Notes under the pieces: model-generated
The model's database searches: none
What the model saw: the letters and a program-made list of their open reading frames with translations, nothing else
Told to the model about the DNA's origin: nothing
NCBI GenBank assembly: GCA_902770245.1
Contig: CACXSS010000025.1
Location: 1 to 46,883 of the forward strand
Origin: an uncultured Planctomycetota bacterium
GTDB lineage: Bacteria; Planctomycetota; Planctomycetia; Pirellulales; Thermoguttaceae
Length of the DNA stretch: 46,883 nt
Direction: 5' to 3'
Part shown: positions 16,132 to 33,155 of the stretch, one piece after another
Position numbering within the stretch: position 1 is the stretch's first letter
Layout of the letters: each line of letters starts with the position of its first letter
Position numbers and translations under genes: made by a program

Positions 16132-17166
16132 TTACTCAATTTTCCCAACAATCCAGTTTTCGCAGCCGGATTCTGTCAAAGATTCGCGAATGGCGTCCAC
16201 GGAGCCGGGGTCGGCAATGACGACCATGCCCAGACCGCGGTTGAACACGCGCGCCATTTCGGCGTCTTCGACTTCGCCCAGTTTCTGCAGCCAGTTGAAT
16301 AGAACCGGAACGGACCAAGAGCCTTCTTCAAAGACCGCTTTGAGTCCTTCGGGAATGATGCGGTCGACGTTTTCCTGCAAACCTCCGCCGGTAATGTGAG
16401 CCAAACCGTGAATGGACGGCGCAATCGCGTCGTTGTCCAGGAGTTTTCGAATCGGCTTGACGTAGATTTTTGTTGGCGTTAAAAGAGCTTCGCCAACGGT
16501 CTTTCCGAGTTCCTCAACGTAATCGGATACTTTCAATCCGGCGGCTTCAAAGACGATTTTTCTAACCAGAGAGAACCCGTTGGAATGCAGTCCGGAAGAC
16601 GCGATTCCAATAGCAACGTCGCCCTTGACAATCTTTTTGCCGTCGATGATGTTCTTTTTGGAGGCAACGCCAACGCAGAATCCCGCCAAGTCGTATTCGC
16701 CCGGAGCGTAAAGATCCGGCATGATAGCGGTTTCCCCGCCAAGCAGCGCGCTGTTGGCTTGAACGCAGCCGTCGGTTATGCCGGAAACGATCTGTTCCAG
16801 CAACGTCGGGTTGTCTTTATCCATGGCAACGTAGTCAAGGAAGAACAGCGGTTCCGCGCCGCAGCAAATCGCATCGTTGACGCTCATGGCAACCAGGTCG
16901 ATTCCGACGGTGTCGTGCTTGTCCATCATAGTAGCGACCTTGAGCTTCGTTCCGACGCCGTCCGTGCAGGAAATCAAGACCGGGTCTTCGTAGTTCCGAC
17001 GCATCAGCGGAGAGTTGTAATCCAGAGAAAACAGCCCAGCAAACCCTTGCGGGAGTTTCATAACCCGGGGCGTGTTGGTCTTTTCCATCAATCCCGGCAG
17101 GCGTTTCATAGCCTGATTGTATACGTCCAAATCGAGTCCAGCGTCTTTGTAGGTTAATTTTGCCAT
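16132..17166 (-). CDS. purM: Phosphoribosylformylglycinamidine cyclo-ligase
   Basis: The 344-residue AIR synthetase catalyses the ATP-dependent ring closure of FGAM to AIR, the fifth step of purine synthesis, in the cytoplasm. The start MAKLTYKDAGLD matches the family. DGVGTKLKVA (about 70-79), GGETAIMPDLY (about 141-151), the GLHSNGFSLVRKI block (near 210) and HITGGGLQENVDRI (near 276) are all present. The length is normal. There is no obvious Shine-Dalgarno site. It is followed closely by prmC; its upstream side borders the gene-free 238-base gap before the dynamin/Hsp70 block. Confidence 0.96.
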   Translation of the reverse strand: MAKLTYKDAGLDLDVYNQAMKRLPGLMEKTNTPRVMKLPQGFAGLFSLDYNSPLMRRNYEDPVLISCTDGVGTKLKVATMMDKHDTVGIDLVAMSVNDAICCGAEPLFFLDYVAMDKDNPTLLEQIVSGITDGCVQANSALLGGETAIMPDLYAPGEYDLAGFCVGVASKKNIIDGKKIVKGDVAIGIASSGLHSNGFSLVRKIVFEAAGLKVSDYVEELGKTVGEALLTPTKIYVKPIRKLLDNDAIAPSIHGLAHITGGGLQENVDRIIPEGLKAVFEEGSWSVPVLFNWLQKLGEVEDAEMARVFNRGLGMVVIADPGSVDAIRESLTESGCENWIVGKIE

Positions 17167-17404
17167 GGCGAATAAAGTTGTTTCAAGTATCCAGCCGTCG
17201 GTGTTTAGCGAAGAGAATTCCAGGCTCTTCTATATATAGCTGTCAACTAAAAATCGACGTCTGATTAAATGTATTATCTCATAAAGCCAGAATCTTTCAA
17301 GGGCGGGGGAAAAGAGAAACGGAATAAAAAAACAAACTCTTTTCACCTAATTACAGCTATCAAAAAGAATCTCGAGCTTCCTAAAGTTTAAATCTTTACA
17401 AAAT

Positions 17405-18235
17405 TTAATCTTTTTTTTCAATTAATCTGTTAATACCCAAAATATTTGCAACGTCTTCTAACAGTTGAATCGGATTATTGTCAGCATTATTTCTTACGTT
17501 ATTTACCTCAGCCCATTGAGACAGATAGAAAGAGCTTGAATGACCATAATAACTGGACGTATTATGTTCCAGAAATTTTGAATGATCGTAATTTAGAACG
17601 CATCCGGTTCCAAGAGCGCGGCTTCCTGTTACCGTCTGAAAAACTTTCAATGCCGTATCTTCCGGATTAACCATTGAATTAATTGGCTTTTGAACGGCGT
17701 TCATTGCCAATAGAATATTTCTATTCATATTTTCAATAGCGGCGCCCAGTAAAACCGCGCTTTTGATTGATAAATTCCGGCGATACAACTGCGCCAAAAT
17801 GCGGATGATAATATTGCCGCCAAGAGAATGACCTATCAAAATCAGATTCTGACGCTGGCTTGATGAGAGGTCGTTGGCAATCTTGTTTGCCAGGAGTTCC
17901 GCTGTTGGCTCAACGTCATCCAGTGCGTTTATCCAGCGTTGTGAAATGGAGCCTATGGTTCCCAGAGCTAAATTTAGCAATCCTCTCCAAGGATTTGAAT
18001 CGTTAAACGCTTTTTCAACTCCTGACGAAACAACGGTATCCAGGTTAATACTATCCCCGTTTTGACATTCCCATGCAACGTTAACAATCTTCTCGGCGTT
18101 GGGGTAAATCGTTTGCAGCAGCTGAAGAGCCTTTTCCTGCGGATCGTCAGCGGAATACAAACCGGGAATATACCAAATAATCGGCGAATCGTTATTGTCA
18201 GTCATGGAATTAGAAGTAGGATGTTGATTTGACAC
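17405..18235 (-). CDS. Alpha/beta hydrolase (lipase-like)
   Basis: The 276-residue protein has an alpha/beta hydrolase fold. WYIPGLYSADD (about 21-31) resembles the oxyanion-side loop and LILIGHSLGGN (about 131-141) is the nucleophile elbow with Ser137. A late histidine in YYGHSSSF (about 229-236) may be catalytic. No signal peptide or TM helix is seen. The annotated start is GTG; an in-frame ATG at 18205 (MTDNNDSP) is equally possible, since neither has a clear ribosome site. It follows the Hsp70-like gene by 148 bases on the same strand, with a possible hairpin between, so operon membership is likely but not certain. The substrate is unknown; esterase or phospholipase activity is inference. 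Confidence 0.75.
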   Translation of the reverse strand: MSNQHPTSNSMTDNNDSPIIWYIPGLYSADDPQEKALQLLQTIYPNAEKIVNVAWECQNGDSINLDTVVSSGVEKAFNDSNPWRGLLNLALGTIGSISQRWINALDDVEPTAELLANKIANDLSSSQRQNLILIGHSLGGNIIIRILAQLYRRNLSIKSAVLLGAAIENMNRNILLAMNAVQKPINSMVNPEDTALKVFQTVTGSRALGTGCVLNYDHSKFLEHNTSSYYGHSSSFYLSQWAEVNNVRNNADNNPIQLLEDVANILGINRLIEKKD

Positions 18236-18343
18236 AAGTAATATGTTATGGCGAAAAACGCTTTAAAACAGCGTACTGACAATTTGGCAGCAGACAGCCA
18301 GTTCGCGAGAAAAAGTCTTTATTCGGTATTGTCGGTAAGTCTG

Positions 18344-18365
18344 AGGGCGTCGGAATTGACGCCCT
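18344..18365 (-). terminator. Stem-loop after the Hsp70-like gene
   Basis: AGGGCGTC-GGAATT-GACGCCCT is a perfect 8-bp stem 19 bases downstream of the Hsp70-like stop. There is no T-run on the minus strand after it. It may be an mRNA-stabilising or partial terminator structure between this gene and the alpha/beta hydrolase gene. Confidence 0.4.
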
Positions 18366-18383
18366 GTATACAGTCAAAAGGCG

Positions 18384-20321
18384 TTACAACTCCGTTTCCA
18401 TATCGATGACTTTTTTGTACTTTTCGACTTCTGATTCGACAAATTCTCGAGTCAACTTGCAAATCACGTTTTTGTTTTTGTTGACAAACCCTCTTGTAAA
18501 TTCAAGAAACCGGTCTGTAAATTTGGGAATAAAATCGTTTTTCCGGATCCTTTCAATTTCGCTGTCTATCAGCGCTGATTTGAACCAGGAAAAATCTGTT
18601 TTTTTAATAAAATCTTCAGTAGTTTTCTTCCCGAAAAGTGTGGTAACCGTTGATTTTAAGAGTCCATTGAGTGTTAAAAATGTCAACAAAACGTCTGTTA
18701 CGGACGAACTCAAAGCCTGTGCGATTGTATCGCCCGCCCAAAAATCAGGATTTTGGGAAATAAACGAACTAACGTTAAACTTTATTGTTCCAAAAGAATA
18801 ATCTTTAGGACTGATACCGCAATCCTTAAACCACTTTTTAAGTCTGTCCGGAATAACCAGGTCAAATTCCATGCCGTTATTTTCAAACAGCGGCTGCAAA
18901 ATCTCTTTGATTTGTGCAGTATTGTTTTTAATGCTGTCCCTGATCTGCGACTCCATGTCGGAGATTTTTCCGCCGTTCTGGCGATATTGTTTCATTTCAG
19001 GCAATGCAAAGTCATTAAACAATTCATTCGCAATATCTTTGATTCTGTCGACATTTGTAAGCGAACCTTCAATCAACTCAACCTGAGAATTGATAAATTT
19101 ATCTTTTTCATCCAGGAGTTTTTGGTATTTGTTTTCGGCGCCTCGTTTAATCACTGCATATTTTGCCAATCCCATGGAAATGGCGGCAAAAACATTTTCG
19201 CAATCTACAATTTGAGATTGCGGCAGGATTTCACTGCAAATATCGCGCGAGAAAGCCCATTTACTGCTTCCGCCCGCCAGGAGCGTTTTTTGAATGGAAT
19301 TGAACGGGATGTTTTTCTCGACGAAACCTCGTCGGAGTTCGTCACGGAACCATCCAATAAGATCAATCGTTCCTGAAGTTGTAAACCGGGTGTTTTTCAA
19401 AGCCGTACTTATACGGGTGCGTTTCATGAATGACTCTGAGGGAGTGTACATTGTTGCGCGGCGCATAAACTCTTCCCAGGTCATGGACAAATGATACCGA
19501 TTATCAAAGAACGGATCAAACGTTTCGTTACGATATTTTACGGTGAATTCCGAAAACTCCTCTTTGAGTTGACGGCTTTGCACCGTTCTAACATAGTAAT
19601 CCTCATTATTGTCGATAAGAGACTGTTCTGTTTTTGTTTTGTCCGTTTTTTGGATCTGATCAAGTATCCACTCATAGAACAAATCGTCAAACAAACGTCC
19701 GCCCAAAAGCATATCGCCCCACGAATGGAGGATTTTACCTTTTTGCAAAATCGCACCGCCAAAATCAACAACCAGAACGCTGTCATTGATCATTGCCTCA
19801 ACGGCTTCGTCTGAACATTCGTCCTGATAGGAACTCAGAGCGCCAAATGGTTCGTCCAACAATCGGATATTTCCGTATCCGGCTTCTCTTGCAATGTGAG
19901 CCAGACAGCGCTTGTAGGAGTCTGACGCTTCGCTTGGAACGCCAAAAATCACGTCCATTTCAAGAGGATTAAGCGTTTTATCATTTTGTTGATACAGCTT
20001 CAGCGCTTCTCGCAAAAAACAGATGGAGCTTTGCCTGGCGTCTTCGGAAATCTCGATATCCGGTTTGAAGTTGGTCGCAAGAACCATGCCGGCGTCCTGG
20101 ATATCGTCATCGCTTGCTCCGCCATAATAATTGAGGGCTTTTTTACCAATGGCAATTTGTCCCTGACGAGAACCTTTGGTAAATCTCAAACATGCGGAAT
20201 CAATTCCTTTATCGTTGTCTCCGCCGGAAAAGAAATTGCACGGAATTACGCTCCCGCCGATTGTTGTAACTGAAAAGTAGGTGTTGTTCGTTCCGAAATC
20301 AATCGCTAAGATTCTTTTCAT
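18384..20321 (-). CDS. Hsp70-like ATPase with non-canonical C-terminal domain
   Basis: The protein has 645 residues. Residues 1-395 are an actin/Hsp70-type nucleotide-binding domain: phosphate-1 loop AIDFGTNNT (6-14), GVPSEAS (127-133), DEPFGAL (156-162, in place of EPTAAAL), phosphate-2 VVDFGGA (184-190), GDMLLGGRLFDDLF (202-215) and adenosine motif LLAGGSSKW (347-355). Between D186 and GD (202) it is about 8 residues shorter than DnaK and lacks the GGGT-F-D stretch. The C-terminus (400-645) is not a DnaK substrate-binding domain. It is helical and charged, with a hydrophobic stretch near 560-585. AAAAGG lies upstream of the ATG. It is 50 bases after the multi-TM gene and is probably cotranscribed with the dynamins. 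Confidence 0.85.
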   Translation of the reverse strand: MKRILAIDFGTNNTYFSVTTIGGSVIPCNFFSGGDNDKGIDSACLRFTKGSRQGQIAIGKKALNYYGGASDDDIQDAGMVLATNFKPDIEISEDARQSSICFLREALKLYQQNDKTLNPLEMDVIFGVPSEASDSYKRCLAHIAREAGYGNIRLLDEPFGALSSYQDECSDEAVEAMINDSVLVVDFGGAILQKGKILHSWGDMLLGGRLFDDLFYEWILDQIQKTDKTKTEQSLIDNNEDYYVRTVQSRQLKEEFSEFTVKYRNETFDPFFDNRYHLSMTWEEFMRRATMYTPSESFMKRTRISTALKNTRFTTSGTIDLIGWFRDELRRGFVEKNIPFNSIQKTLLAGGSSKWAFSRDICSEILPQSQIVDCENVFAAISMGLAKYAVIKRGAENKYQKLLDEKDKFINSQVELIEGSLTNVDRIKDIANELFNDFALPEMKQYRQNGGKISDMESQIRDSIKNNTAQIKEILQPLFENNGMEFDLVIPDRLKKWFKDCGISPKDYSFGTIKFNVSSFISQNPDFWAGDTIAQALSSSVTDVLLTFLTLNGLLKSTVTTLFGKKTTEDFIKKTDFSWFKSALIDSEIERIRKNDFIPKFTDRFLEFTRGFVNKNKNVICKLTREFVESEVEKYKKVIDMETEL

Positions 20322-20371
20322 TATTTTGCCTTTTAATTATAAGTTTGTAACGTAATCTGTAATTGCGATAA

Positions 20372-22219
20372 TTAACGTTTGCGTCTTGCCGCGCCTTTTT
20401 GCTCAACGTTGCCATTGCGGATAATCGGTCGTTTGGTGATTTCAATTATATCTCCATCTTCTGGCGGCAGCCCAAAAATATCGTATTGGCTTTCCATGTC
20501 CTGCGACCACACCGCGGTTTCTTTTTGTGGCGGTTTAACAGGTTCAACAATGGGGGTAGGAGAACCGCCAGGCGGCGTTGTAGGACTGCCAGACTGCGTT
20601 GAAAGACCGCCAGGCTGAGGAGCATCTATCTGTCCAACAAATTTCATGGAACCGTCAGGAATCGGATAACCATATTCTTTAAACTTCAGCGCCATGTTGT
20701 GCAAAATAGGCGAGAGATTATGGATATCCGCTTCCCATAAATCACAGAAGTAATTATACACGTTTCTCATGTGCCCTGCTAAAGGCTCAGAACCTTCAAT
20801 TAATTTTTGGAGGCGTTCAATTTTATTCAAAAGCGCCGCTTCCTGATCTTTCCATTGTTTCTCTGCATTTTGCCATTTTTCATCAAAAAGCATGTCAGAC
20901 TGGTTTAAGCTGGAAACAAACAGAACAATGCCCTGAATCTGATCCAGATACAGCGGTTCCAGTTTTTGAAGATAATCTGCATAGTTGAACGCATTTTTGC
21001 GCTTTGTCATCATCAAAACCAGAATTGTTGCCAGGTATAAACACATTCTTTTGAAGAATGCGCCGCTGATCGATTTTTTAGAACCAAAGAAATTGATCGG
21101 TGAAATGTATTTGGCAAGCTGAAGAACCGTATCGACGCCCATAGCGGCAAAAACGGCTTTTTCGAGCCATTGACGATACTTTTCATTAGCCGTAATCCAA
21201 AAAATGCCAGAGGCGAAGACTGCCGCTCCGAACGTTGCGCCGATAAACGTGACAAAGCCGGACTGCCCGTCCATATTGGAGATCCTTGTAAAAAGTCCTG
21301 TCAGCATTGAACCGAGAACTGCTCCAATAACAACCAGAACGGCAATCGTCCATGCCGGAATTTCAAGTTGAATCTGACCTCCAACAGGGGCCTGGAATGG
21401 TCTGAAAAAATGGCTAATCAATTTGGAGAGATCTGTGGGCGCGCTTTTCTCTGGCGGGAACGCTTTTTTCATCCAGAATGAATTGGGGCTGCAAATGGAT
21501 TCAACAAATTTTGGATGGAGAGAATTAGCCATCGCCTGAAGCTCTTCCTGGACAGGAATTGTATTAAGTCCGTCTGAAGAGGCAATCATTTTTTCCTTTA
21601 ATGCGTCGACAAACGCTTGAGCCTGATTTTGAGCCTTCTCAACGGATTTTTCATAAAGCTCCGTACCTGGGCGGAAGCGTTCGCCATTTAAAATCGTCAG
21701 GTATTCAGACCATTGGCCTGTAGGGTCATCGCTCGCCTCTGGAGCGTCTTCAATTCCAGATACGCGGCCGGAAGCGCGAGACAATGCTGAAAACTGACTA
21801 CGGACTTTTAAATAAATGACAAGAATAAACAGCGCAATTGCGATCCAAAACCAAATGGATTTAAATGGACTTTCCTCGGCGCTGTCCTGAGCGGTAGCCT
21901 GATTCGGTTGAGCCGCGGTATTCTCTGCGGGAGCCGGTTGAGTTGTCGATTGTGGAACCTGAGGGGGTTGAGTCGCCGCTGGTTGAACTGCGGTATTCTC
22001 TGTAGGAGCCGGTTGAGTTGTCGATTGTGGAACCTGAGGGGGTTGAGCCGGCGCTGGTTGAACTGGCACAGACGGGGCTTGTTCCTGATTTTGAACAGTC
22101 TGCTCTGTTGAAGTCGTCGGAGAAGGAGGCGTTACATCATCGTTTGCGATTCCTAAAGAGGCGCAGCATAAGCAAACCATGACAGCAGAAATAAACAACA
22201 GGAATAACTTGTGATTCAT
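20372..22219 (-). CDS. Multi-TM protein with exported Pro/Gln/Thr-rich repeat region
   Basis: I do not recognise this 615-residue protein. A signal peptide (1-25) precedes a Pro/Gln/Thr/Ala-rich region (30-110) that contains two copies of a 25-residue repeat starting QPPQVPQSTTQPAP. A TM helix follows at 121-138, then a soluble helical segment (150-285), TM helices near 289-310 and 321-343, a weaker one near 392-405, and a long cytoplasmic helical tail ending in KGAARRKR. A second Pro-rich stretch lies near 545-570. AAGGAG is upstream of the ATG. It sits between the dynamin and Hsp70-like genes and could be their membrane partner. Confidence 0.75.
   Translation of the reverse strand: MNHKLFLLFISAVMVCLCCASLGIANDDVTPPSPTTSTEQTVQNQEQAPSVPVQPAPAQPPQVPQSTTQPAPTENTAVQPAATQPPQVPQSTTQPAPAENTAAQPNQATAQDSAEESPFKSIWFWIAIALFILVIYLKVRSQFSALSRASGRVSGIEDAPEASDDPTGQWSEYLTILNGERFRPGTELYEKSVEKAQNQAQAFVDALKEKMIASSDGLNTIPVQEELQAMANSLHPKFVESICSPNSFWMKKAFPPEKSAPTDLSKLISHFFRPFQAPVGGQIQLEIPAWTIAVLVVIGAVLGSMLTGLFTRISNMDGQSGFVTFIGATFGAAVFASGIFWITANEKYRQWLEKAVFAAMGVDTVLQLAKYISPINFFGSKKSISGAFFKRMCLYLATILVLMMTKRKNAFNYADYLQKLEPLYLDQIQGIVLFVSSLNQSDMLFDEKWQNAEKQWKDQEAALLNKIERLQKLIEGSEPLAGHMRNVYNYFCDLWEADIHNLSPILHNMALKFKEYGYPIPDGSMKFVGQIDAPQPGGLSTQSGSPTTPPGGSPTPIVEPVKPPQKETAVWSQDMESQYDIFGLPPEDGDIIEITKRPIIRNGNVEQKGAARRKR
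21899..22045. repeat. 75-bp direct repeat within the multi-TM protein gene
   Basis: Two copies with a 75-base period encode the 25-residue units at residues 59-83 and 84-107 (each opens QPPQVPQSTT). The DNA identity is high, including a shared GAGCCGGTTGAGTTGTCG block at 21931 and 22006, which indicates recent duplication and a copy number that may vary. Confidence 0.85.
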
Positions 22220-22310
22220 TTAAACGCTCCTTGTGAAATTAAATAACGACTATGATTTAGCGAAGACGCATGTATCTTAATATTGCCAACAAAAACGCTT
22301 GAAAGGTCTT

Positions 22311-22448
22311 ATGGCAAACGCCATAAAGACTATTGTGGTTTATTTTAGTAAAACCGGAACGCTCAAGACGAACCTGATCGAAAAGAGCGAACCGGTTAAA
22401 AGTCATTTTAATTATGTATACATTCAAGTATACAATATATTAAACTGA
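22311..22448 (+). pseudogene. Short ORF resembling a flavodoxin N-terminus (possible remnant)
   Basis: This 45-codon ORF on the opposite strand from its neighbours starts ATG after GAAAGG. Residues 5-19 read IKTIVVYFSKTGTLK, which closely resembles the first strand and phosphate loop of flavodoxins (usually VVYFSxTGNTK). The similarity ends after about residue 20, where a full flavodoxin would continue for over 100 residues. It lies in the 232-base gap between the dynamin and multi-TM genes. It could be a leftover of a displaced gene or chance; no transcription signal was found. Confidence 0.35.
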
Positions 22449-22451
22449 ATA

Positions 22452-24497
22452 CTAGGCATTATCAATGAAATCATTGACGCTGTCCAGCAAGGTTCGAAGC
22501 GTGTTTCGGCTATTTTCCAGTTCTTCTTTTTTCTGTCGGGTTTCGAATTCACCCTGCTGGAGAACTGCCCGTGCGCTGTCGATGGTGTCTTTGACAGCCT
22601 GAATTTCATTATTCATACCAGCTTGAATGGCGTCTTGGATAGTTTGCGTTTTCTCAAAAACCGCTTGTCCAAGAGCCTTGCCATTCTCGTCAGCGTGAGA
22701 TTGAATCTCGTTAGCAATGTTTTCAGCTGTTTTATCTTTAATCTTTTTTGTTACGCCTTTCATCGTAAACAAAGCCTGAATTCCGCCAGCTGTCAACAAA
22801 AGGGGAATGAGAATCAGGGGGTTAAAAATGCCTAAAACAGTAGCGCCGGCAATAATTGCAACACTGGGAATAAGGGATTTAAGCATTTCCTTATAACCCA
22901 GAGTGGCTCCAACCGCGGCTGAACCAACTCCACACAATAACAATCCGCCAGCAGCAGAAAGGACTCTTTCCATTACCCCAACTTCTCTGACGCCAACATT
23001 TTCGGATTCCCCTGTAATGGACAGCTTTGCATCCGAAATGTCATTGTAAAACTCTTCCAAATTGGTTTGGATGTCATTTCCCAAAGAATTAAGCCTTTCT
23101 TCAAGAAGGGGTTTGAAAGTGTTGTCTTCCCATTCCATCTGGGCTTTTTCCATGCATTGTCCAACATATTCAGAACATTCCTGAATAATAGCTTTTGCCT
23201 GTTCGGATGTCTTTGTCGTTGTGAAAAATTTAAGATCATTTTTCAACTCGTAACTATCAAGCCATTCCTTAATTCTTGTCGATTGGGCACGGAGAAAATC
23301 TTCAAAGCTATTTCCCGCATCATTTTTGATATCATTTCTGATTTTTTCAATCTTTTGGATTGTAAGATCCCGATTAAGTTCGGCATTTCTCAGCTGAGGT
23401 TCAGCGTTTTTCGCATTCTCTTCGAGTTGAGCAAGCGATTGGCTAAGCGTTTTTTCCTTGTTAGGAATGAAATCCAACAAGGCGTCATTAATAAACTTTC
23501 GAAGATCCTTCGACGGTTTAATCAGCTTAAGCCTGCCGCGGTTGTCAATGAGGAACGCGCTAAGGTTTTTCTCCAGTTCAACGAAACCGGATTCATTAAG
23601 TTTTTCGGCGTCTCCAGCAATTTTGGCGTCCAAAGCGTTTGCAGAAGAAACGAATTGAATTCCATTGGGCAATTCTGTTTTGCTGTCCAGTTTTTTATGA
23701 GCAAAGGATACAACGCGATCTCGTTCTGCCAGACGAACTTCATCAAAGCGGTTGCAAATAAAGAACAGGTCTTCATAGCCGTTGCGCCGCAGGGTGTTGT
23801 CAACGACATCCATTTCAGAAGCGGAAGCCAAGGCGCTGCAGGTCATAACAAAAATAATCGCGTCAGCCTGTCCGAGATAATCCGTAGTAACCTGAGTTCT
23901 GGATTTATGCTCGTTCAAACCGGGAGAGTCGATAATTTCAACATTGTTTTTCAGCAGTGGCAGCGGCCAGAACAGTTCTACTTTTTTGTACGGGGACTCA
24001 AAAACAGACTGCGCCTGATCTTTGCCAGGATCGGGAATGACAACAAATTCTTCGACCCGGTCAGCGGGAATTTCCATGGGTGGGATTTCACCTTCAGCCC
24101 GATGTGCGTCAACATGCTTTTGAACGTCGGGAGCAAGTTCGTATGGTGTGGATTCCGGAAATGGATTTGCAAAGTGTAGAACAGCTTTCTTTTCTGGTCC
24201 ATACTTGACTTCGTTGATGACGGCGGTGCAGGGAATCGCGTAAGCGGGAAGAACGTCCTGCCCCAAAAGGGCATTAATGAAAGTACTTTTCCCACGCTTG
24301 AATTCTCCAATAATCAGAGTTTTGAAGGAATCGCCATCCAATTGGCTCAACGTCTTTTCCAGTTTTTGGACCTCGCCGGAAAGACCAAGGCTCTTTGCGA
24401 TATTGAGCGCTTTGCCGATGTAATCGTGAAGTTTAGATTTTTTCTCGTTAAATGTTGTAAGCGGAGCGCTGATAACATCAATCGAATCAGTTGACAT
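22452..24497 (-). CDS. Bacterial dynamin-like GTPase with hydrophobic paddle
   Basis: This 681-residue dynamin-superfamily GTPase has G1 GEFKRGKST (64-72), a G2 threonine in IPCTAV (T91), G3 DSPG (190-193) and G4 CNRFDE (N249, D252). Long helices with coiled-coil character follow (about 330-500), then a strongly hydrophobic region (about 518-590, including SAAGGLLLCGVGSAAVGATL and PLILIPLLLTAGG) that would insert into membrane like the paddle of BDLP-type proteins, and a final coiled coil (600-681). It is expected to bind and remodel the inner membrane in a GTP-dependent way. It is 89 bases after the second dynamin gene. AAAGG is upstream of the ATG. Confidence 0.92.
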   Translation of the reverse strand: MSTDSIDVISAPLTTFNEKKSKLHDYIGKALNIAKSLGLSGEVQKLEKTLSQLDGDSFKTLIIGEFKRGKSTFINALLGQDVLPAYAIPCTAVINEVKYGPEKKAVLHFANPFPESTPYELAPDVQKHVDAHRAEGEIPPMEIPADRVEEFVVIPDPGKDQAQSVFESPYKKVELFWPLPLLKNNVEIIDSPGLNEHKSRTQVTTDYLGQADAIIFVMTCSALASASEMDVVDNTLRRNGYEDLFFICNRFDEVRLAERDRVVSFAHKKLDSKTELPNGIQFVSSANALDAKIAGDAEKLNESGFVELEKNLSAFLIDNRGRLKLIKPSKDLRKFINDALLDFIPNKEKTLSQSLAQLEENAKNAEPQLRNAELNRDLTIQKIEKIRNDIKNDAGNSFEDFLRAQSTRIKEWLDSYELKNDLKFFTTTKTSEQAKAIIQECSEYVGQCMEKAQMEWEDNTFKPLLEERLNSLGNDIQTNLEEFYNDISDAKLSITGESENVGVREVGVMERVLSAAGGLLLCGVGSAAVGATLGYKEMLKSLIPSVAIIAGATVLGIFNPLILIPLLLTAGGIQALFTMKGVTKKIKDKTAENIANEIQSHADENGKALGQAVFEKTQTIQDAIQAGMNNEIQAVKDTIDSARAVLQQGEFETRQKKEELENSRNTLRTLLDSVNDFIDNA

Positions 24498-24586
24498 GGT
24501 TTATAATGCCTTTCGTTTGGGTTAAGGGTTGGAAAACAGGTATAACGTTAAAGTTATATGACAATTATAAATTGGGTTGTTGAACG

Positions 24587-26452
24587 TTAGTTAGCAGCAG
24601 CGTCTGAATCAATTTGCGTCTGGAAACGGTTTAGTATATCCAGATCAGCCTGTGTTGAATCCAATTTTTTACAAAGTTCGTTCAATTCTGCGTTTTCTCG
24701 TTCAATAATATTGTTTATAACAGTCTCATGTGACTGGTAGTAAATGTCCATCAAGCGTGCAACGCCATTTTGAGCGTTTGAACACGCCTCATCCAATACT
24801 TTTCGAATTCCTGGCATTAAAGCGTTTTGACACCAGAATGGAAATTGTTTTTTTAGCATTTCCCGCAACTCTTCGCGCATTTGCGTTGGATCGCCAAACA
24901 TGTTTGTTAAGCGACTGACGCCGCGATGCGCCCAATCGCCCAAATTGTTTTTTAAAAAGTTGCCAACAGAGGCGCCGAATTCAGTTTGATTAAATACGCT
25001 ATCGGAATAGGCCGCATCCAATTGTTGAAGCAGATCTCCGGTTTCATTATTGATTTTCATTGATAATGAATCTTGAGAATCCAGTTCTTTCATATCAAAG
25101 CTGGTATCAATATCTACGGATACAGATACGCTCAAATTGCGATATGCGTCGCTGAATTCCTGTTTAAATATTCCCAAAATCTTTTGCGCTTCCAGAAAAA
25201 AACGTTCCCGATATGGTTGTATCGCTTCTAATGATTCATGCCATATTGATTTACATTTTTCCTGAAATCCGGTTGTCGCAATCCAACGAACAGACTCTTT
25301 ACTAGTTGCGTTATCTAAATCCTGCATGAGCTGACTATATTTATCATCAGCAACTTTCATAACTGCGGTTTGCCACCCCTCGTCCTGTTTGGCAATTCGA
25401 TCGTTATACTCTTGAGTTTTCAGATTTAGCCATTCTTTAGGGTTTGCCAACTGTTTGGCAGACAAGAGGTCACGGCGTTTTTCAACTTCCTGTTGACGAG
25501 CGTTGACAATATTTGTCATCTGAGGCAGGATGCTGTTTTGTAAAATTTCCGTCAGTTTTTCGTTCAGAATGACGGCACGTCCCGATGAAAGCTTTTGCTG
25601 GAAAACATTTTCAAAATCTGAAAACATTTTTTTATAGAATACGTCCAACTCCGAATCCTCATGTTTTTCATTTGCAAATCTTGCGCTGACAGGAACAATC
25701 GCAGCCAGATTCCTGTGAGTTTCATTAGTCATGCGCGTATTTATAAAACTCATCTGCCGTGCCTGCTCTCGGGGGCGAATTCGATCAATTTGAGTTACAA
25801 CGCCTATACAACGTTTTTGAATTGTTTCTAAATAGTCTCTGACAAAATTACAAAGCGTTTGAGAACATGGCGTTGTTGCAGGAATTATAACCAAAGCGGC
25901 ATCACAGAATTTCTGAATAATATCCTGAGTTACCTGTGAATGACGGATATTGTTGGCATTAATGCCAGGGGTGTCAATAATAACCAGTCCATTTCGGAGA
26001 ATGCGGTTCCGCAGATAAATCAGTACGCGATCTACAGAAGATGCGTAATTCTCATCCGCGGTATAGCGGTTAATAAATTCACGAACTGCAGGATCGTCCG
26101 GTTCCAGCGAAGAAGAATCATTATCGATGGGGATTTCGTCCTGAAGACGAAGTCGACGCCCGTCGTTAAACAGAATTTCGACGTCAAACTGAGAACCATA
26201 ACAGATAAATGTTGGAGCGCAGGTCGTGCCTTGAAGAACGTCTTCTTTAAGAACGTCTTTATGTAAAAGAGCATTAATGAGCGTACTTTTACCGGATGAA
26301 AATTCGCCAGCAACGCCTAAATATAATTTTACGTCATTCCGTCGAGCAAGAAAGGAATCTACGATATCGCGTATTGGTCGCCATTGTGCATAAGTCCAGT
26401 CATATTTTTTTTCAAGCGTATTGAAATAATCAACAAACGGATCAAAATTCAC
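24587..26452 (-). CDS. Bacterial dynamin-like GTPase without paddle
   Basis: This 621-residue dynamin-superfamily GTPase has G1 GEFSSGKST (49-57), G2 GTT (75-77), G3 DTPG (160-163) and G4 TQID (T220, D223). The remainder is helical, with charged coiled-coil stretches (about 310-345 and 585-615). Unlike its neighbour it has no long hydrophobic segment, only short amphipathic ones, so it is probably soluble or peripheral. The start is GTG, preceded by AAGGAGT at good spacing. It is the first gene of the block. Paired unlike dynamins are common in bacteria, where the two often act as a heteromer. Confidence 0.92.
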   Translation of the reverse strand: MNFDPFVDYFNTLEKKYDWTYAQWRPIRDIVDSFLARRNDVKLYLGVAGEFSSGKSTLINALLHKDVLKEDVLQGTTCAPTFICYGSQFDVEILFNDGRRLRLQDEIPIDNDSSSLEPDDPAVREFINRYTADENYASSVDRVLIYLRNRILRNGLVIIDTPGINANNIRHSQVTQDIIQKFCDAALVIIPATTPCSQTLCNFVRDYLETIQKRCIGVVTQIDRIRPREQARQMSFINTRMTNETHRNLAAIVPVSARFANEKHEDSELDVFYKKMFSDFENVFQQKLSSGRAVILNEKLTEILQNSILPQMTNIVNARQQEVEKRRDLLSAKQLANPKEWLNLKTQEYNDRIAKQDEGWQTAVMKVADDKYSQLMQDLDNATSKESVRWIATTGFQEKCKSIWHESLEAIQPYRERFFLEAQKILGIFKQEFSDAYRNLSVSVSVDIDTSFDMKELDSQDSLSMKINNETGDLLQQLDAAYSDSVFNQTEFGASVGNFLKNNLGDWAHRGVSRLTNMFGDPTQMREELREMLKKQFPFWCQNALMPGIRKVLDEACSNAQNGVARLMDIYYQSHETVINNIIERENAELNELCKKLDSTQADLDILNRFQTQIDSDAAAN

Positions 26453-27112
26453 AGTTTGTACTCCTTGGATACATTCGTGTATGAAATAATCCCGAAACGG
26501 AAATGCCTGATCAACTTCTGGTTAAACATGGGGAATGTCCGAATTTAACACTCAATGAGTTGACAGCGAATTCCTCACATAAAATTACGATTCCCATTAA
26601 ATAGTAATTCAACTGGTGTGATATAAAATTAAAAGCTGGTCAAACCAGCAAATCAGGGTCTGACCAAAATCGGATAATGACTGAAATACAAAAGTCATTC
26701 ATTTAACAGCATGTATTCTTCAATTAAATATATGCTGTTATGAACGTTGCAATCAAAAAGAATAATGGTTGTTTGGATCCTGAAAGTGGAATTTCAAAAA
26801 TTAATAATTTTGATTCAAATGCTTCTCTATTATGATATTGACAAACATTTATCTGTAAATGGTTAAGTCAACAAAGAAGTCATTTTTAAATTATTATTTT
26901 ACGTTCAATTATACATCTCCGTTACTAAAAGTCAAGGATTTTATCATTTTTTTTGCATATTTTCCTATAAAACAGAATAATCTTTATATAAAACAGAATA
27001 ATATATCATTTGCCTGAATGTTGCCGCGAAAACAGCAGTTATAACCGGAACGTTCTCTGGTTGGTAATCGCAAATAATAAAAAAGTGGCTCTTCAAGAAA
27101 TTAGCGCCCGTC
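26453..27112. other. A+T-rich non-coding region upstream of the dynamin block
   Basis: About 660 bases without a convincing gene separate the divergent dynamin and ferredoxin-nitroreductase genes. It holds small palindromes (GCTGGT-CAA-ACCAGC at 26635-26649; TAACAGCAT/ATGCTGTTA at 26704-26740) and a pair of 16-base direct repeats near 26966. The promoter of the dynamin block should lie at its left end, but no clear -35/-10 pair was found there. No tRNA, integrase or att-like site was seen. Confidence 0.6.
26966..27002. repeat. Two 16-bp direct repeats, 21-base spacing
   Basis: TATAAAACAGAATAAT occurs at 26966-26981 and again, identically, at 26987-27002. The 21-base period equals two helical turns, so a regulator could bind both on one DNA face. 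It lies in the divergent intergenic region between the dynamin block and the ferredoxin-nitroreductase gene. Confidence 0.7.
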
Positions 27113-27140
27113 TTGAAAATATGTCAAGACCGGGTATAAT
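27113..27140 (+). promoter_or_regulatory. Likely promoter for the ferredoxin-nitroreductase/GTPase pair
   Basis: TTGAAA (27113-27118) and a perfect TATAAT (27135-27140) are 16 bases apart and point at the gene starting at 27208, giving a leader of roughly 60 bases. Confidence 0.55.
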
Positions 27141-27207
27141 TCAGAACAGGTTTGTAATTGTCAGAGAATCTTCGTCTGGTCAAGACGAATAAACATTGTA
27201 TTATGCC

Positions 27208-28020
27208 ATGATTACTATTGATCAAACTTCCTGCGTTCGCTGCGGGGCGTGCGTTCGCGAATGTCCCGGGATTATTTTAGAACAGAATTCGGACGGCGTC
27301 GCTCAGGTTGTTTCAAGTCGGGAAAGCTGCTGTATTAAGTGTCAGCATTGCGTTGCGATTTGTCCTGCTGGCGCGGTAAGCGTAGACGGCGTTGGCGCAA
27401 ACGACTGTTTGCCAAAAGGCGAACTCCCGTCTGAAGAACAAATGCTCAATCTGATTCGAATGCGCCGCAGTATTCGAAGCTGGTCTGACCGACCAATCGA
27501 ACCGGAGACGATCGAACAACTTAAAAACGTTCTCAACTGGACGGCGACGGGCTGTAACGATCATTCGCTGCGGTTTGCGTTTGTTACCAGTCCCGCCATT
27601 TTTGACGAATTGAGAACCAAGATTTACGGGTTTATCAATCGACCGATTATTAACCGAATTCTTCGCTGGAAATTTAAGAAATTCCGCCATTATTTTGACG
27701 CCATGAAGAACGGAACGGACGTCATTTTCCGCAACGCGCCGGGAATGGTAATTGCGTTGATTCCGAAATCGGCTCCCTGCGCGGCGTTTGACCCGGTTAT
27801 TGCTCTGTCTAACTTTGACTTGTACGCTCAAACTCTCGGCTTGGGAACGTGCTGGTGCGGGTTTGCCGAGGGCATTTTCAAACATCGTCCCAAGCTGGTC
27901 AGAGGGCTTGAGTTACCCAAGGGTTATCGCGTTGGGGCGGTTATGCTCTTTGGATATCCGTCCGCGCCGTATTTGCGTTCCACGGCTCAAAAACCGTTTG
28001 AAACGCAGCTGATTGATTGA
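27208..28020 (+). CDS. Ferredoxin-nitroreductase fusion protein
   Basis: The protein has about 270 residues. The first 60 hold a two-cluster 4Fe-4S ferredoxin domain (CVRCGACVRECPG and CCIKCQHCVAICPAG). The rest is a nitroreductase-fold domain that binds FMN, starting MLNLIRMRRSIRSWSDRPI and with GLGTCWCGFAEG later. Such fusions pass electrons from ferredoxin-like donors to the flavin and occur mostly in anaerobes and facultative bacteria; the physiological substrate is unknown. I chose the ATG at 27208 (MITIDQTSC); an upstream in-frame TTG at 27196 is less likely. The stop lies next to the start of the following GTPase gene. Confidence 0.9.
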   Translation: MITIDQTSCVRCGACVRECPGIILEQNSDGVAQVVSSRESCCIKCQHCVAICPAGAVSVDGVGANDCLPKGELPSEEQMLNLIRMRRSIRSWSDRPIEPETIEQLKNVLNWTATGCNDHSLRFAFVTSPAIFDELRTKIYGFINRPIINRILRWKFKKFRHYFDAMKNGTDVIFRNAPGMVIALIPKSAPCAAFDPVIALSNFDLYAQTLGLGTCWCGFAEGIFKHRPKLVRGLELPKGYRVGAVMLFGYPSAPYLRSTAQKPFETQLID

Positions 28021-29255: not shown

Positions 29256-32200
29256 TCAGAAGTCGATTCGCAACGTTGCGTTGAGAGCGTTGACCGTCTT
29301 GTACTGATTGAAATAGGTGTTGTACTGGAAGTTAGCCGACATTCTCTGAGTGAGACGATAGTCAGCGGAGAACATGAGGTTTGCCCAATCGCGGCTACAT
29401 CCGTTGCTTCGCATTTCAAAGTCTCCCATTGGGCTGTCAGTCATGGATGTACTTCCCATTACGTGGGTGTAGTAGACTGCCTGAGGATCGAGGAACTCGT
29501 GAGCGTATGCGCCGCCGAGGGTCAATCTCAAAATCTGCCAGTTGTTGCAGCCGACGATGAAGTCGCGGCTGACGCGAACGCCTAACTGACCTCTCAAGGA
29601 ATGATAAGCCATGTCATAGCAGTACAGGTTCATGTGGGAAGGCATATCAACTCCGCCCAGGTTGGACGTTCCCTTTTCGGTGAAGTCGTCAATTGTAACG
29701 AAGGTGTACTGAAGCGAGGCGTACGGGTTGATAACAAATCCGTGCTTTTCGACGTACATCCAACCGCGTTCAATGTAGGCGGCGGCGGAAAGTCCGCTTG
29801 GATCGGCAGTGAAGTTGTTGTCAAACGATTGGGTGTTGTAGTAACGCTGAGCGTCGAGCGTGTTGTAGGTGAACGTTCCGTTCGCCAACCAGTAACCGCC
29901 CATGCAGTTAGCGTCCCATTTGGCATACAATCCAAAGGTGAAGTCGTCCGACTTAATTCTGGAGTAGGAATTGCCTTTAGCGGCGTTTGTGTGCCAGATA
30001 TCCGAGGTGGAATATCCGAAGTACATGCCGAAGACTCTGCAGCAAATGTTCTTCCATTCAATTCCAACAGCCATGCCGGAGGATTCTTCATGGTATTTGG
30101 TGAAACCTTTCCAGTACAGTCCATCGCCATAGTTGCCAGTGAAGGAACCCCAGACGGATCGGCGCGGTTCGCAGTAACGCGGATACTTTCCACAAATTCG
30201 TCCGCCAAATTCACACTGACGTCTGGCGCAGCACTGGCTGCAGCCTGGCTCGCAGCTCGGCTCGCAATCAGAGGCGTATTCCACGCACTGGCTCTGGCAG
30301 CAGAACTGGCACAGTCCCATGTCGTCCGTAACCAGACGGTTGGAAAGCATGTTATTGAAAGCAATCTGTCGCTGAACCTGAGCGTTGAGCCAGTCTCCGT
30401 AGATTCCGCCAGCCAGGTCGTCAAACTTTTCTTGAGCTTCGATCTTGTCGTCGCTGTTCCAGATGTCGTCCAGGGCTTCACGGTAATCGTCTTCCTGAGG
30501 ATGGCAAAGTTCGTACAGGTATCTGTCCATGTTGATACCGAGGTTTCCATCGGCAACAATCGAGTGCGGATCGTGAACTTTAACGTGCAGACGAGCTTTG
30601 TCATAGAACGGCACATTCGGAGTTCCGTCGTCGTTAGCAAGTCCTTCGACTCCAACTTCGTAGAACAGGTGCTTTCCTCCAGCGTCGTCGATATTCAACT
30701 GAGTTCCGTCAGTATCATGGAATGCTTCGATGGAGTAGAATTCTTTATCTTTGCCGTCTTCGCCAATCATCTGGCACCATGTATAGTCGTATGCCGTGGC
30801 AAGATACAGCTTCGTATTGCCAGTAATGTTGATATTCTGGAAAGCCAGGCGACCGACGTTAAGACGTTCAACCCATTCGCCTTCTTCGTTGAGGCACTGT
30901 GTGCCGTTTGGATCAATGGTCAGATAAAGGTTGCCCCAGTCCGCGTTAAATGTGGACGTGTTGCCAATCAACTGAACCTGAGCGCTGCGGTTGGTCGTGT
31001 AACCAACGTTCTGCGGAGTAACGGGATTGTGTTCGTTATCCAGGTATTCATCCGGCGCATTGTAAAGCTGGGTTGTGTTATAAAGCCCCAGGCGGAATTC
31101 GGCGTTTTTACCAACGTTGAACGTTCCAGAACCAGCATCGTCCTTGAGGAGCTGATGAGTGTATTTATCAGTCTGATCAATTTTGCCGGTTTCATAATCG
31201 CCGATGGCGGTGTCCGCCGTGTCAGCGTTCGTATTGAAACGGGTGTAATCAACGGTGAACTTATGATCTTTGGGCGATTGAGCGCCATCGTTTCCGTACG
31301 TGAAATCCTTATACAAAGAGCTTGTATACGGGTTTACAATGTCAACGGATCCGTCGAGCTGCTTATAGTTGGCGCCGCCAACAAAGCCGGTGGTGTTGAG
31401 AACTACTTTGCTGCGACCGGAAAGATTGACGTTGATCGTCGGCGAGGTGTGATCGTAATCGCCTGTCGACATCTCGAACGCATCGTGTCCGGGAAGGTTG
31501 TAGTAGTTGTTCCAGTAGTTCACGTCTTCGTCGGTGAGAGATTTACCGCCAAAGTAAACGTACGGAATATCCTGACCGTTGTAGTTCGTGTTGATCTCGG
31601 AGAACGGAACGTCGTCCAGGATGTCGCCTTTACCCATGTTGGCAGAACGAACGGTTCCGTCAAAATTGGTTCTGCCTCCGGTGAAGTTCAGCGTAGACGT
31701 GCCGTTGGGCGCGCCGAACGTCGAACGACCATTGAAATGGTTGTTGCCGCCGGTTACGAGAATATTGCTGTTGCCGCCCCAGGTTACGTCGAAGTCGTCT
31801 TTACTGCGAATGATGTCGCCGTAAGGTGTGAAATCGTAGTTTCCAACAGAGTGAACTTCTGTATCAAAGGTGTTCGTACCGCCGTTAATGGTAACGTTAG
31901 CGTTTCCACCTTCAGCCAGACCGTCCAATCCTCCAATTGAGGAGAAGTAAACGCCGTAATAGTTCTTCTGGTTGGCAAGACCCTGGGCATCGACATAGGT
32001 GGCGTTCTTACCGGTGAAGTAATTCGTACCGTTGTCGAAGGTAACATTGCTGTCGCCAACCTGAACGTGCGGGGTTCCTGTTGGGCTGCTGGCTCCGCCG
32101 CCGAAGACCGCGCGCTGATTAAACGTCGTCGTTCCGCCTGCGAAGGTAACGTCGGCATTACCGCCTTTGGTTACGCCGTCAGCGTTCCAACCGCCGCCGC

Positions 32201-32936
32201 CAAAATAGGTGTTTTGGTTTTCGAAGGTGGTTTTGCTGCCATCTTCAAAGACGACTTTCGTATTTCCAGCATTGGGCTGAATCGTCGCTCCGTCTTGACC
32301 GCCGAACTGAACGCCGCCCCAGAAATGGGAGTTGCTGCCAGTTGCGAAGGTAACCTCGGCGTAAGCTCCGGTGTTGCCATCGTATCGATCTTCAGAGTTG
32401 CCGTCGTTCATGCTGCCAAACAGAACGTCAACTTCTTTGGCTTTGATGGGAAGCATATTGTATTCCGGTCCCATCGTGTTGCCCCAGTCGCCAACGTTAA
32501 GACCAGAACCAAACTGGTTCGTTCCCTTAACGGTAACATTGACATTGCGGGGGGCTGACGATGTAGAATCCGTTGGAGCTGCCAATACCAGTTTGGCATT
32601 TCTCCAAATGATTCCGTCATCCGTGTTGTCATAATAGAATGTTCCGTCGTACGTTGCTTCTTTGTACGTGTTTTGCGTCGCATTGTTGGTTACATTCCAA
32701 TCCTGAATGTTGGCGTTAAGACTTCCATTAGGATTCTTGAACGTCGCGATGTAACCATTCTCCTCAGCTACGCCGTAATCGGAGATGTCTTTTGAACCGG
32801 TGATTGTTCCACCGATATTGACATCAGGCTGATAGTTCTGGTCTGCGCGAGCTTGTGGCTGTCCGCAAAGTCCTACGGACAATAATGCCGCCACGAATGC
32901 GACTAACCTCTTCCTGAAAAATTGTTTTACGTCCAT
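29256..32936 (-). CDS. Autotransporter-type surface protein with beta-helix passenger
   Basis: The protein has about 1226 residues when started at the ATG at 32936 (MDVKQFFRKRL), which begins a signal peptide ending near QPQARA. A longer upstream reading frame lacks a signal peptide at its start. The passenger (about 30-860) is Gly/Asn/Thr-rich with recurring strands of the GGTNTF, GGNNHFNG, GGRTNFDG and GGTTTFN type, expected for a right-handed beta-helix. A cysteine-rich linker follows (about 875-922). The last 290 residues are an autotransporter-like outer-membrane beta-barrel with alternating aromatic strands and the terminal ATLRIDF ending in Phe. It probably forms a surface-exposed adhesin-like fibre; no catalytic site is seen. 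Confidence 0.85.
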   Translation of the reverse strand: MDVKQFFRKRLVAFVAALLSVGLCGQPQARADQNYQPDVNIGGTITGSKDISDYGVAEENGYIATFKNPNGSLNANIQDWNVTNNATQNTYKEATYDGTFYYDNTDDGIIWRNAKLVLAAPTDSTSSAPRNVNVTVKGTNQFGSGLNVGDWGNTMGPEYNMLPIKAKEVDVLFGSMNDGNSEDRYDGNTGAYAEVTFATGSNSHFWGGVQFGGQDGATIQPNAGNTKVVFEDGSKTTFENQNTYFGGGGWNADGVTKGGNADVTFAGGTTTFNQRAVFGGGASSPTGTPHVQVGDSNVTFDNGTNYFTGKNATYVDAQGLANQKNYYGVYFSSIGGLDGLAEGGNANVTINGGTNTFDTEVHSVGNYDFTPYGDIIRSKDDFDVTWGGNSNILVTGGNNHFNGRSTFGAPNGTSTLNFTGGRTNFDGTVRSANMGKGDILDDVPFSEINTNYNGQDIPYVYFGGKSLTDEDVNYWNNYYNLPGHDAFEMSTGDYDHTSPTINVNLSGRSKVVLNTTGFVGGANYKQLDGSVDIVNPYTSSLYKDFTYGNDGAQSPKDHKFTVDYTRFNTNADTADTAIGDYETGKIDQTDKYTHQLLKDDAGSGTFNVGKNAEFRLGLYNTTQLYNAPDEYLDNEHNPVTPQNVGYTTNRSAQVQLIGNTSTFNADWGNLYLTIDPNGTQCLNEEGEWVERLNVGRLAFQNINITGNTKLYLATAYDYTWCQMIGEDGKDKEFYSIEAFHDTDGTQLNIDDAGGKHLFYEVGVEGLANDDGTPNVPFYDKARLHVKVHDPHSIVADGNLGINMDRYLYELCHPQEDDYREALDDIWNSDDKIEAQEKFDDLAGGIYGDWLNAQVQRQIAFNNMLSNRLVTDDMGLCQFCCQSQCVEYASDCEPSCEPGCSQCCARRQCEFGGRICGKYPRYCEPRRSVWGSFTGNYGDGLYWKGFTKYHEESSGMAVGIEWKNICCRVFGMYFGYSTSDIWHTNAAKGNSYSRIKSDDFTFGLYAKWDANCMGGYWLANGTFTYNTLDAQRYYNTQSFDNNFTADPSGLSAAAYIERGWMYVEKHGFVINPYASLQYTFVTIDDFTEKGTSNLGGVDMPSHMNLYCYDMAYHSLRGQLGVRVSRDFIVGCNNWQILRLTLGGAYAHEFLDPQAVYYTHVMGSTSMTDSPMGDFEMRSNGCSRDWANLMFSADYRLTQRMSANFQYNTYFNQYKTVNALNATLRIDF

Positions 32937-33155
32937 GTCTCGGTCCCTTATGTGACTGTAAAAATTAAAACATACCCAATAAAACCATGATTTCTTTTGG
33001 GAAACCCAGCTTTTCGGGACGACAAATTTTCCTCTATTTGTCAAAAGCTGAAGATAATCATGGGGGGAATACACGGACTCTTTCCCTGTATTCCAATTTT
33101 TCTTATCGGCTGGATAATACAATAGAATTCAACAAAAAAAAGAAAAAAAGCAGAA

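Follow-up and report, generated by a model that had tools for sequence, protein, structure and literature searches.

Five consecutive genes on the minus strand of a contig from a gut planctomycete bring together two dynamin-like GTPases, a membrane protein, a degenerate Hsp70-type ATPase and an α/β hydrolase, and this raises the question of whether they constitute one system or a composite of unrelated parts. An earlier note on this DNA had proposed the former, namely an envelope-remodelling or damage-response complex with the hydrolase as its lipid-acting effector. In the following, we refer to the whole stretch that was analysed, 46,883 nucleotides in length, as the window, and to the five genes, in the order in which they are read, as DYN1, DYN2, TM, HSP and HYD.

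Anatomy of the block

All five open reading frames are present at positions 17405-26452, and the products that had been assigned to them held up. The two dynamins, each matching Dynamin_N at about 90 bits, indeed differ in their membrane properties; TM combines a signal or transmembrane segment with a Pro-rich stretch and about five hydrophobic segments, as expected of an exported or transmembrane Pro-rich protein; HSP is a degenerate Hsp70 with a deleted phosphate-2 loop; and HYD weakly matches the α/β hydrolase profile DUF726 (23.2 bits, cut-off 22.6). The genes and the elements discussed below are:

24587..26452, minus strand: DYN1, 621 aa from a GTG start, dynamin-like GTPase lacking a hydrophobic paddle (Dynamin_N, 89.5 bits, cut-off 27)
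22452..24497, minus strand: DYN2, 681 aa, bacterial dynamin of the BDLP1 type that has a paddle (Dynamin_N, 90.8 bits, cut-off 27)
22779..22964, minus strand: hydrophobic paddle of DYN2, residues 512-573 (hydropathy)
20372..22219, minus strand: TM, membrane partner of HSP (homologous family directly upstream of HSP at 44 loci)
20792..20983, minus strand: 64-residue helix of TM, residues 413-476 (AF2 model)
20381..20521, minus strand: conserved C-terminal β domain of TM, residues 567-613 (alignment; AF2 pLDDT above 90)
18384..20321, minus strand: HSP, Hsp70-type NBD and helical stalk, 645 aa (Pfam HSP70, 21.5 bits, cut-off 20.6)
19752..19766, minus strand: phosphate-2 loop of HSP (VVDFGGA), five residues (GTCDF) missing (alignments, residue count, DNA)
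18600..18734, minus strand: what is left of the HSP membrane hairpin (residues 530-574), which has lost its transmembrane-like character (AF2 helices)
17405..18235, minus strand: HYD, α/β hydrolase, judged to lie outside the module (DUF726; conserved beside AIRS)

The intergenic gaps measure 89 bp (DYN1-DYN2), 232 bp (DYN2-TM), 50 bp (TM-HSP) and 148 bp (HSP-HYD), and the GC content of the block, HYD included, is 0.41-0.47, compared to 0.47-0.53 in the flanking genes. The GTG start of DYN1 is preceded by a ribosome-binding-site-like aaggag. Further 5′, positions 26453-27195 form a long AT-rich gap with promoter-like sites (26935-26908, 11/12 matches), and T residues follow a strong hairpin at 26649-26635, ahead of the DYN1 start. 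This region is a possible leader or attenuator; an Rfam search of 17000-27300 matched no RNA element. Also adjoining the block, at 29256-33122, is a gene for a 1288-aa autotransporter β-domain protein, which is unusual in a planctomycete neighbourhood.

The hydrolase and the variable slot

Two congeners, G002 and G003, retain HYD with 79% and 78% identity, respectively, and in both it adjoins AIRS. The flanks are syntenic in G002 (AIRS 97%, PrmC 86%, nitroreductase 89% and MnmE-like 85% identical), where the slot contains TM-HSP, with an HSP that is only ~40% identical, and lacks dynamins. In the stretch covered by the G003 contig, AIRS is accompanied by HYD and by a paralogue of it, and an HSP is not adjacent. 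As HYD is kept with AIRS, even where no HSP is adjacent, it travels with AIRS/PrmC and can be set aside as a member of the block; no evidence was found in support of its proposed role as a lipid-acting effector. Contig C163 of this genome encodes three further HYD paralogues in tandem (L216:2701-5843).

The dynamin pair

The G1, G3 and G4 motifs are visible in the translations of DYN1 and DYN2, and the profile of the helical domain of bacterial dynamins (Dynamin-like_hel_bact) finds DYN2 with 50.4 bits; the two adjacent genes form a bacterial dynamin pair. DYN2 matches Nostoc BDLP1 (2j68) over its whole length (residues 36-662, E=6e-33). The hydropathy profile of DYN1 shows no transmembrane-like segment and no paddle, and its match to solved dynamins is confined to the G domain (BDLP1 G domain, 2e-11).

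BDLP1/BDLP2 of Nostoc and Cj-DLP1/2 of Campylobacter are heterotypic bacterial dynamin pairs. The genes of the window resemble them in their side-by-side arrangement and in the end-to-end likeness of DYN2 to BDLP1, but differ in that a TM-HSP pair is present in addition and in that DYN1 resembles solved dynamins in its G domain only. A hint of a link to Hsp70 comes from the DLP gene adjoining BDLP1, which encodes a DnaJ-like domain with predicted DnaK binding (PMC6104087). In the genome studied here, further dynamins occur without HSP on contigs C226 and C331. Two contig ends of one genome (L015:3087-5458 and L016:2901-5870) probably join, and would then form a three-dynamin cluster between guaA and carA that lacks an Hsp70-like gene.

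DYN2 matches the LeoA/LeoBC defence models (E=1.5e-21 and 1e-13), with a LeoA family score of 27.9 bits that is far below the curated cut-off of 325. The likeness to Eleos (LeoA/LeoBC) is thus one of paired bacterial dynamins and a weak profile match, to which the window adds the Hsp70-like and TM genes. The DO-GTPase/GAP1 conflict systems also feature paired GTPases, in some neighbourhoods with Hsp70, GrpE and TM components. However, DO-GTPases, partnered by GAP1, are described as a TRAFAC family of their own and without mention of dynamins (PMC7159879), whereas the GTPases of the window match Dynamin_N.

The TM-HSP gene pair

A scan of 84,980 species genomes for full-length HSP relatives returned ~50, from Planctomycetota, Synergistota, the purple sulfur bacteria of the Chromatiaceae (Thiocystis, Lamprocystis, Allochromatium, Thiodictyon), Achromatium, KSB1 and others; the viral contigs searched contained none. 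At 44 loci, TM lies directly upstream of HSP on the same strand, mostly with gaps of -47 to +41 bp, an arrangement that the window shares with its close spacing of 50 bp. Within the genus, HSP paralogues are found at several loci, and the first HSP of each locus is directly preceded by TM. Judged by this conserved gene order, TM-HSP is a widespread, previously undescribed and tightly coupled membrane ATPase pair. Dynamin profiles run over the TM-HSP loci found none nearby except in the window, and 100 neighbouring proteins revealed no recurring third partner. The same genome itself contains TM-HSP without dynamins on contig C10, in the form of an intact pair plus a degenerate second HSP.

The earlier note had suggested looking for enrichment near defence genes. 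None is evident among the neighbours of TM-HSP: PADLOC returned scattered single defence matches for the 100 proteins and no recurring system, and we dropped a defence-island context for the pair. Matches of TM to PD-T4-6 (14 bits) and of HSP to Cas12f (17 bits) in PADLOC were taken as noise.

TM comprises a signal, a Pro-rich region, transmembrane segments, a long helix and a C-terminal β domain. An AF2 model of residues 157-615 (pLDDT 79.6, pTM 0.54) shows the membrane helices, the 64-residue helix, two short helices and the confidently modelled β domain. Pfam and NCBIfam profiles yielded nothing beyond noise for the TM family, and a foldseek search with the whole model gave no significant match. 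By eye, the order of helices and a G-rich C-terminal motif suggested homology to GrpE, and GrpE-like genes do occupy the slot upstream of the Hsp70-like gene in several other planctomycete pairs, as TM does. This homology was not supported: the GrpE profile matches none of 37 TM members, and hhalign comparisons of TM and GrpE yield E-values of 0.2-0.8, with decoys scoring equally well or better. Given these profile and fold comparisons, a nucleotide-exchange role of TM is only a guess.

HSP and its losses

In its AF2 model (pLDDT 85.8, pTM 0.79), the Hsp70 NBD of HSP gives way to long helices, then to a hairpin and one last long helix, and the chain is all-helical after residue 380. The best PDB matches of the model are DnaK NBDs (foldseek; 5obu, E=2.9e-11), and all 42 HSP members match the Hsp70 profile at E<=0.01. 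HSP has in common with DnaK/Hsp70 the NBD fold, the phosphate-1 and adenosine motifs and a family-invariant Glu (E157). It differs in the absence of a substrate-binding domain, in place of which it has a helical stalk, equipped with a membrane hairpin in the family; a profile search found no DnaK match beyond the NBD of HSP, and there is no β-sandwich domain. An equivalence of this stalk to that of dynamins was rejected (hhalign probability 18% over 12 columns, no significant profile match).

The window HSP departs further from DnaK/Hsp70, as it also lacks the phosphate-2 loop and the hairpin. The GTCDF residues of this loop, more than 90% conserved in the family, have been removed by an in-frame deletion, leaving no intact DxGGGTxD loop as in Hsp70/DnaK. 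A transmembrane-like segment after residue 400 is found in 41 of 42 HSP members; the window HSP is the sole exception and lacks the C-terminal membrane hairpin of the TM-HSP module. Across 38 other HSP members, 76 residues are at least 95% invariant. The window HSP retains 63 of them, and the 13 losses are concentrated in the phosphate-2 loop (five) and in the hairpin (three, all Gly/Pro). This pattern of loss is selective and does not reflect random decay. In a phylogenetic tree, the window HSP falls outside five congener sequences, on a branch of length 0.86, and is therefore not a recent duplicate. It is probably a soluble, non-hydrolysing nucleotide-binding protein, which TM would hold at the membrane.

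Degenerate copies are also found at two other loci (L017:13011-15314 and L020:12203-13468), where a second HSP lies in tandem behind an intact one. The phosphate-2 loop of these second copies is degenerate (NFDDGVCEF and NVDDGSCEF), and they keep only 46-47 of the 76 family-invariant residues. The tandems are predicted to be pairs of an active and an inactive Hsp70-like protein.

Dynamins and Hsp70-type ATPases elsewhere

Among 40 dynamin loci of Planctomycetota (~40 genera), one has an Hsp70-like gene, on the other strand and ~3 kb away, and none has TM-HSP. Within the same family, a dynamin-Hsp70-dynamin arrangement occurs in the congener G001 (L157) and dynamin-dynamin-Hsp70 in G021 (L160). 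With a background of ~3.2 PF00012 matches per genome, estimated from a listing, the presence of an Hsp70-like gene at 3 of 57 dynamin loci is a modest enrichment (P ~0.01, computed after the cases were seen).

In actinobacteria, all four Hsp70-like loci found by homology (L087, L092, L096, L101) have dynamins nearby; in L087, a GrpE-like gene with a transmembrane segment lies between the Hsp70 and the dynamin. L261 is a further dynamin and Hsp70 group. An ordered dynamin-GTPase-Hsp70 operon is annotated on plasmids of Rhodococcus opacus, R. qingshengii, R. erythropolis and Gordonia, and the Hsp70 lies at most 4 kb from the dynamin in 33 of 34 actinobacterial plasmid records, many of which are closely related and thus not independent. 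Rhodococcus/Gordonia plasmids carry this operon, in the form dynamin-GTPase-Hsp70(-Hsp70), at L262:4430-9881, L263:4161-11567, L264:7941-13050 and L265:9058-16435. In the Hsp70s examined from R. opacus and R. qingshengii, a transmembrane segment follows the NBD; those of L262 and L263 have a single one. A literature search found no published description of a dynamin-Hsp70 gene association; closest to it come the work on the DnaJ-like domain of the dynamin next to BDLP1 (PMC6104087) and that on GTPase-centric conflict systems that include Hsp70 and GrpE (PMC7159879).

These operons share with the window the order of two dynamin-type GTPases and an Hsp70-family ATPase, which is membrane-attached where examined, but in the window TM sits between DYN2 and HSP. 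The plasmid operons have no separate TM gene; instead, their Hsp70 consists of an NBD, a linker, a single transmembrane segment and a further C-terminal domain. It matches the TM-HSP profile weakly (E ~1e-16), compared to ~1e-77 for a generic short-Hsp70 profile, and the dynamin-linked Hsp70s elsewhere belong to subfamilies other than HSP.

Other Hsp70-like genes of Planctomycetes occur in a recurrent pair of a GrpE-like (~260 aa) and an Hsp70-like (~590 aa) protein, mostly beside an 800-aa gene (L033, L034, L036, L198, L031), which looks like another non-canonical Hsp70 system. At L195:8017-9090, directly upstream of an Hsp70-like gene, a GrpE-like protein with a signal peptide, a Ser/Thr-rich linker and a transmembrane segment is predicted to be a membrane-anchored exchange factor.

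Discussion

The block is a composite and not the conserved five-gene system that had been envisaged. By the refuting condition that the earlier note had itself laid down, a fixed five-gene system fails. The shared strand and order of the genes and the LeoA/LeoBC matches of DYN2 would suit a conserved complex of all five products, active in envelope damage or defence and using the hydrolase as its effector on lipids, but HYD is conserved with AIRS/PrmC where HSP and dynamins are missing, all other TM-HSP loci lack dynamins, and the defence matches around TM-HSP are scattered and single; we regard such a complex as very improbable. The broader notion of cooperation between dynamins and Hsp70-like switches gains support from independent dynamin-dynamin-Hsp70 gene orders in Planctomycetota and Actinomycetota.

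For the window itself, we tentatively propose, at somewhat less than even chances, that the derived copy of TM-HSP may serve the heterotypic dynamins next to it as a membrane-docked nucleotide switch. It is quite possible, if short of probable, that the self-contained TM-HSP and the dynamin pair are chance neighbours, inserted independently into one variable slot: no other TM-HSP has a dynamin nearby or a recurring third partner, most dynamins lack an Hsp70, both modules are found apart in the same genome, and congeners differ in the content of the slot. Yet groups of dynamin and Hsp70 genes recur independently across several lineages, and among known HSPs it is only the copy next to dynamins that lacks both the catalytic loop and a membrane hairpin of its own. 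Functional linkage and chance adjacency are about equally likely here; as the linkage recurs elsewhere, a functional link in the window is plausible and testable. It is improbable that the window pair arose by duplication of the intact C10 copy and is now decaying, with its losses marking the onset of pseudogenisation. The degenerate second HSP beside that intact copy, the long branch and the deleted loop would agree with decay, but TM and HSP have full-length open frames, most near-invariant residues are retained, the losses are in-frame and mainly within two functional elements, and the window copy lies outside the clade of its congeners.

In this reading, HYD-AIRS-PrmC and nitroreductase-MnmE enclose an AT-rich slot of variable content, in which two modules lie side by side. 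One is TM-HSP, a conserved pair that would be translationally coupled: HSP is an Hsp70/actin-type ATPase in which the substrate-binding domain is replaced by a helical stalk that normally bears a membrane hairpin, and TM is its dedicated multi-spanning partner, whose long cytoplasmic helix and β domain could contact the NBD. The other is the heterotypic dynamin pair, with a membrane-inserting, BDLP1-like DYN2 and a paddle-less DYN1, which would tether or remodel the inner membrane with GTP. Having lost its catalytic phosphate-2 loop and hairpin and kept the remaining ATP pocket, HSP would bind nucleotide, hydrolyse it poorly and be docked by TM. In this position, it could gate the assembly or disassembly of the dynamins, a parallel to the dynamin-GTPase-Hsp70 operons that actinobacteria carry on plasmids. 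The gene anatomy, the conservation of TM-HSP, the loss of loop and hairpin and the recurring dynamin and Hsp70 gene groups are observations; a coupling of the two modules here, be it physical or functional, and the switch role of HSP are inferred.

A broader reading, which we consider rather unlikely, is that bacteria possess an undescribed, recurrent class of machines: a membrane-attached ATPase of the Hsp70 type, assisted by a membrane partner of its own for exchange or anchoring, would control a pair of heterotypic dynamins. Different Hsp70 subfamilies would have been recruited independently, on actinobacterial plasmids, in two planctomycete types and in the window, where the Hsp70 would have become a hairpin-less pseudo-ATPase because the dynamin and TM supply the membrane contact. 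In eukaryotes, Hsp70 uncoats vesicles that were cut by dynamin. We know of no chaperone-type regulator of bacterial dynamins, save for the hint of the DnaJ-like domain in a Nostoc dynamin.

TM-HSP is a widespread and still unnamed membrane ATPase module. The repeated linkage of dynamin and Hsp70 genes, including on mobilizable plasmids, offers a direct handle on how bacterial dynamins may be switched.
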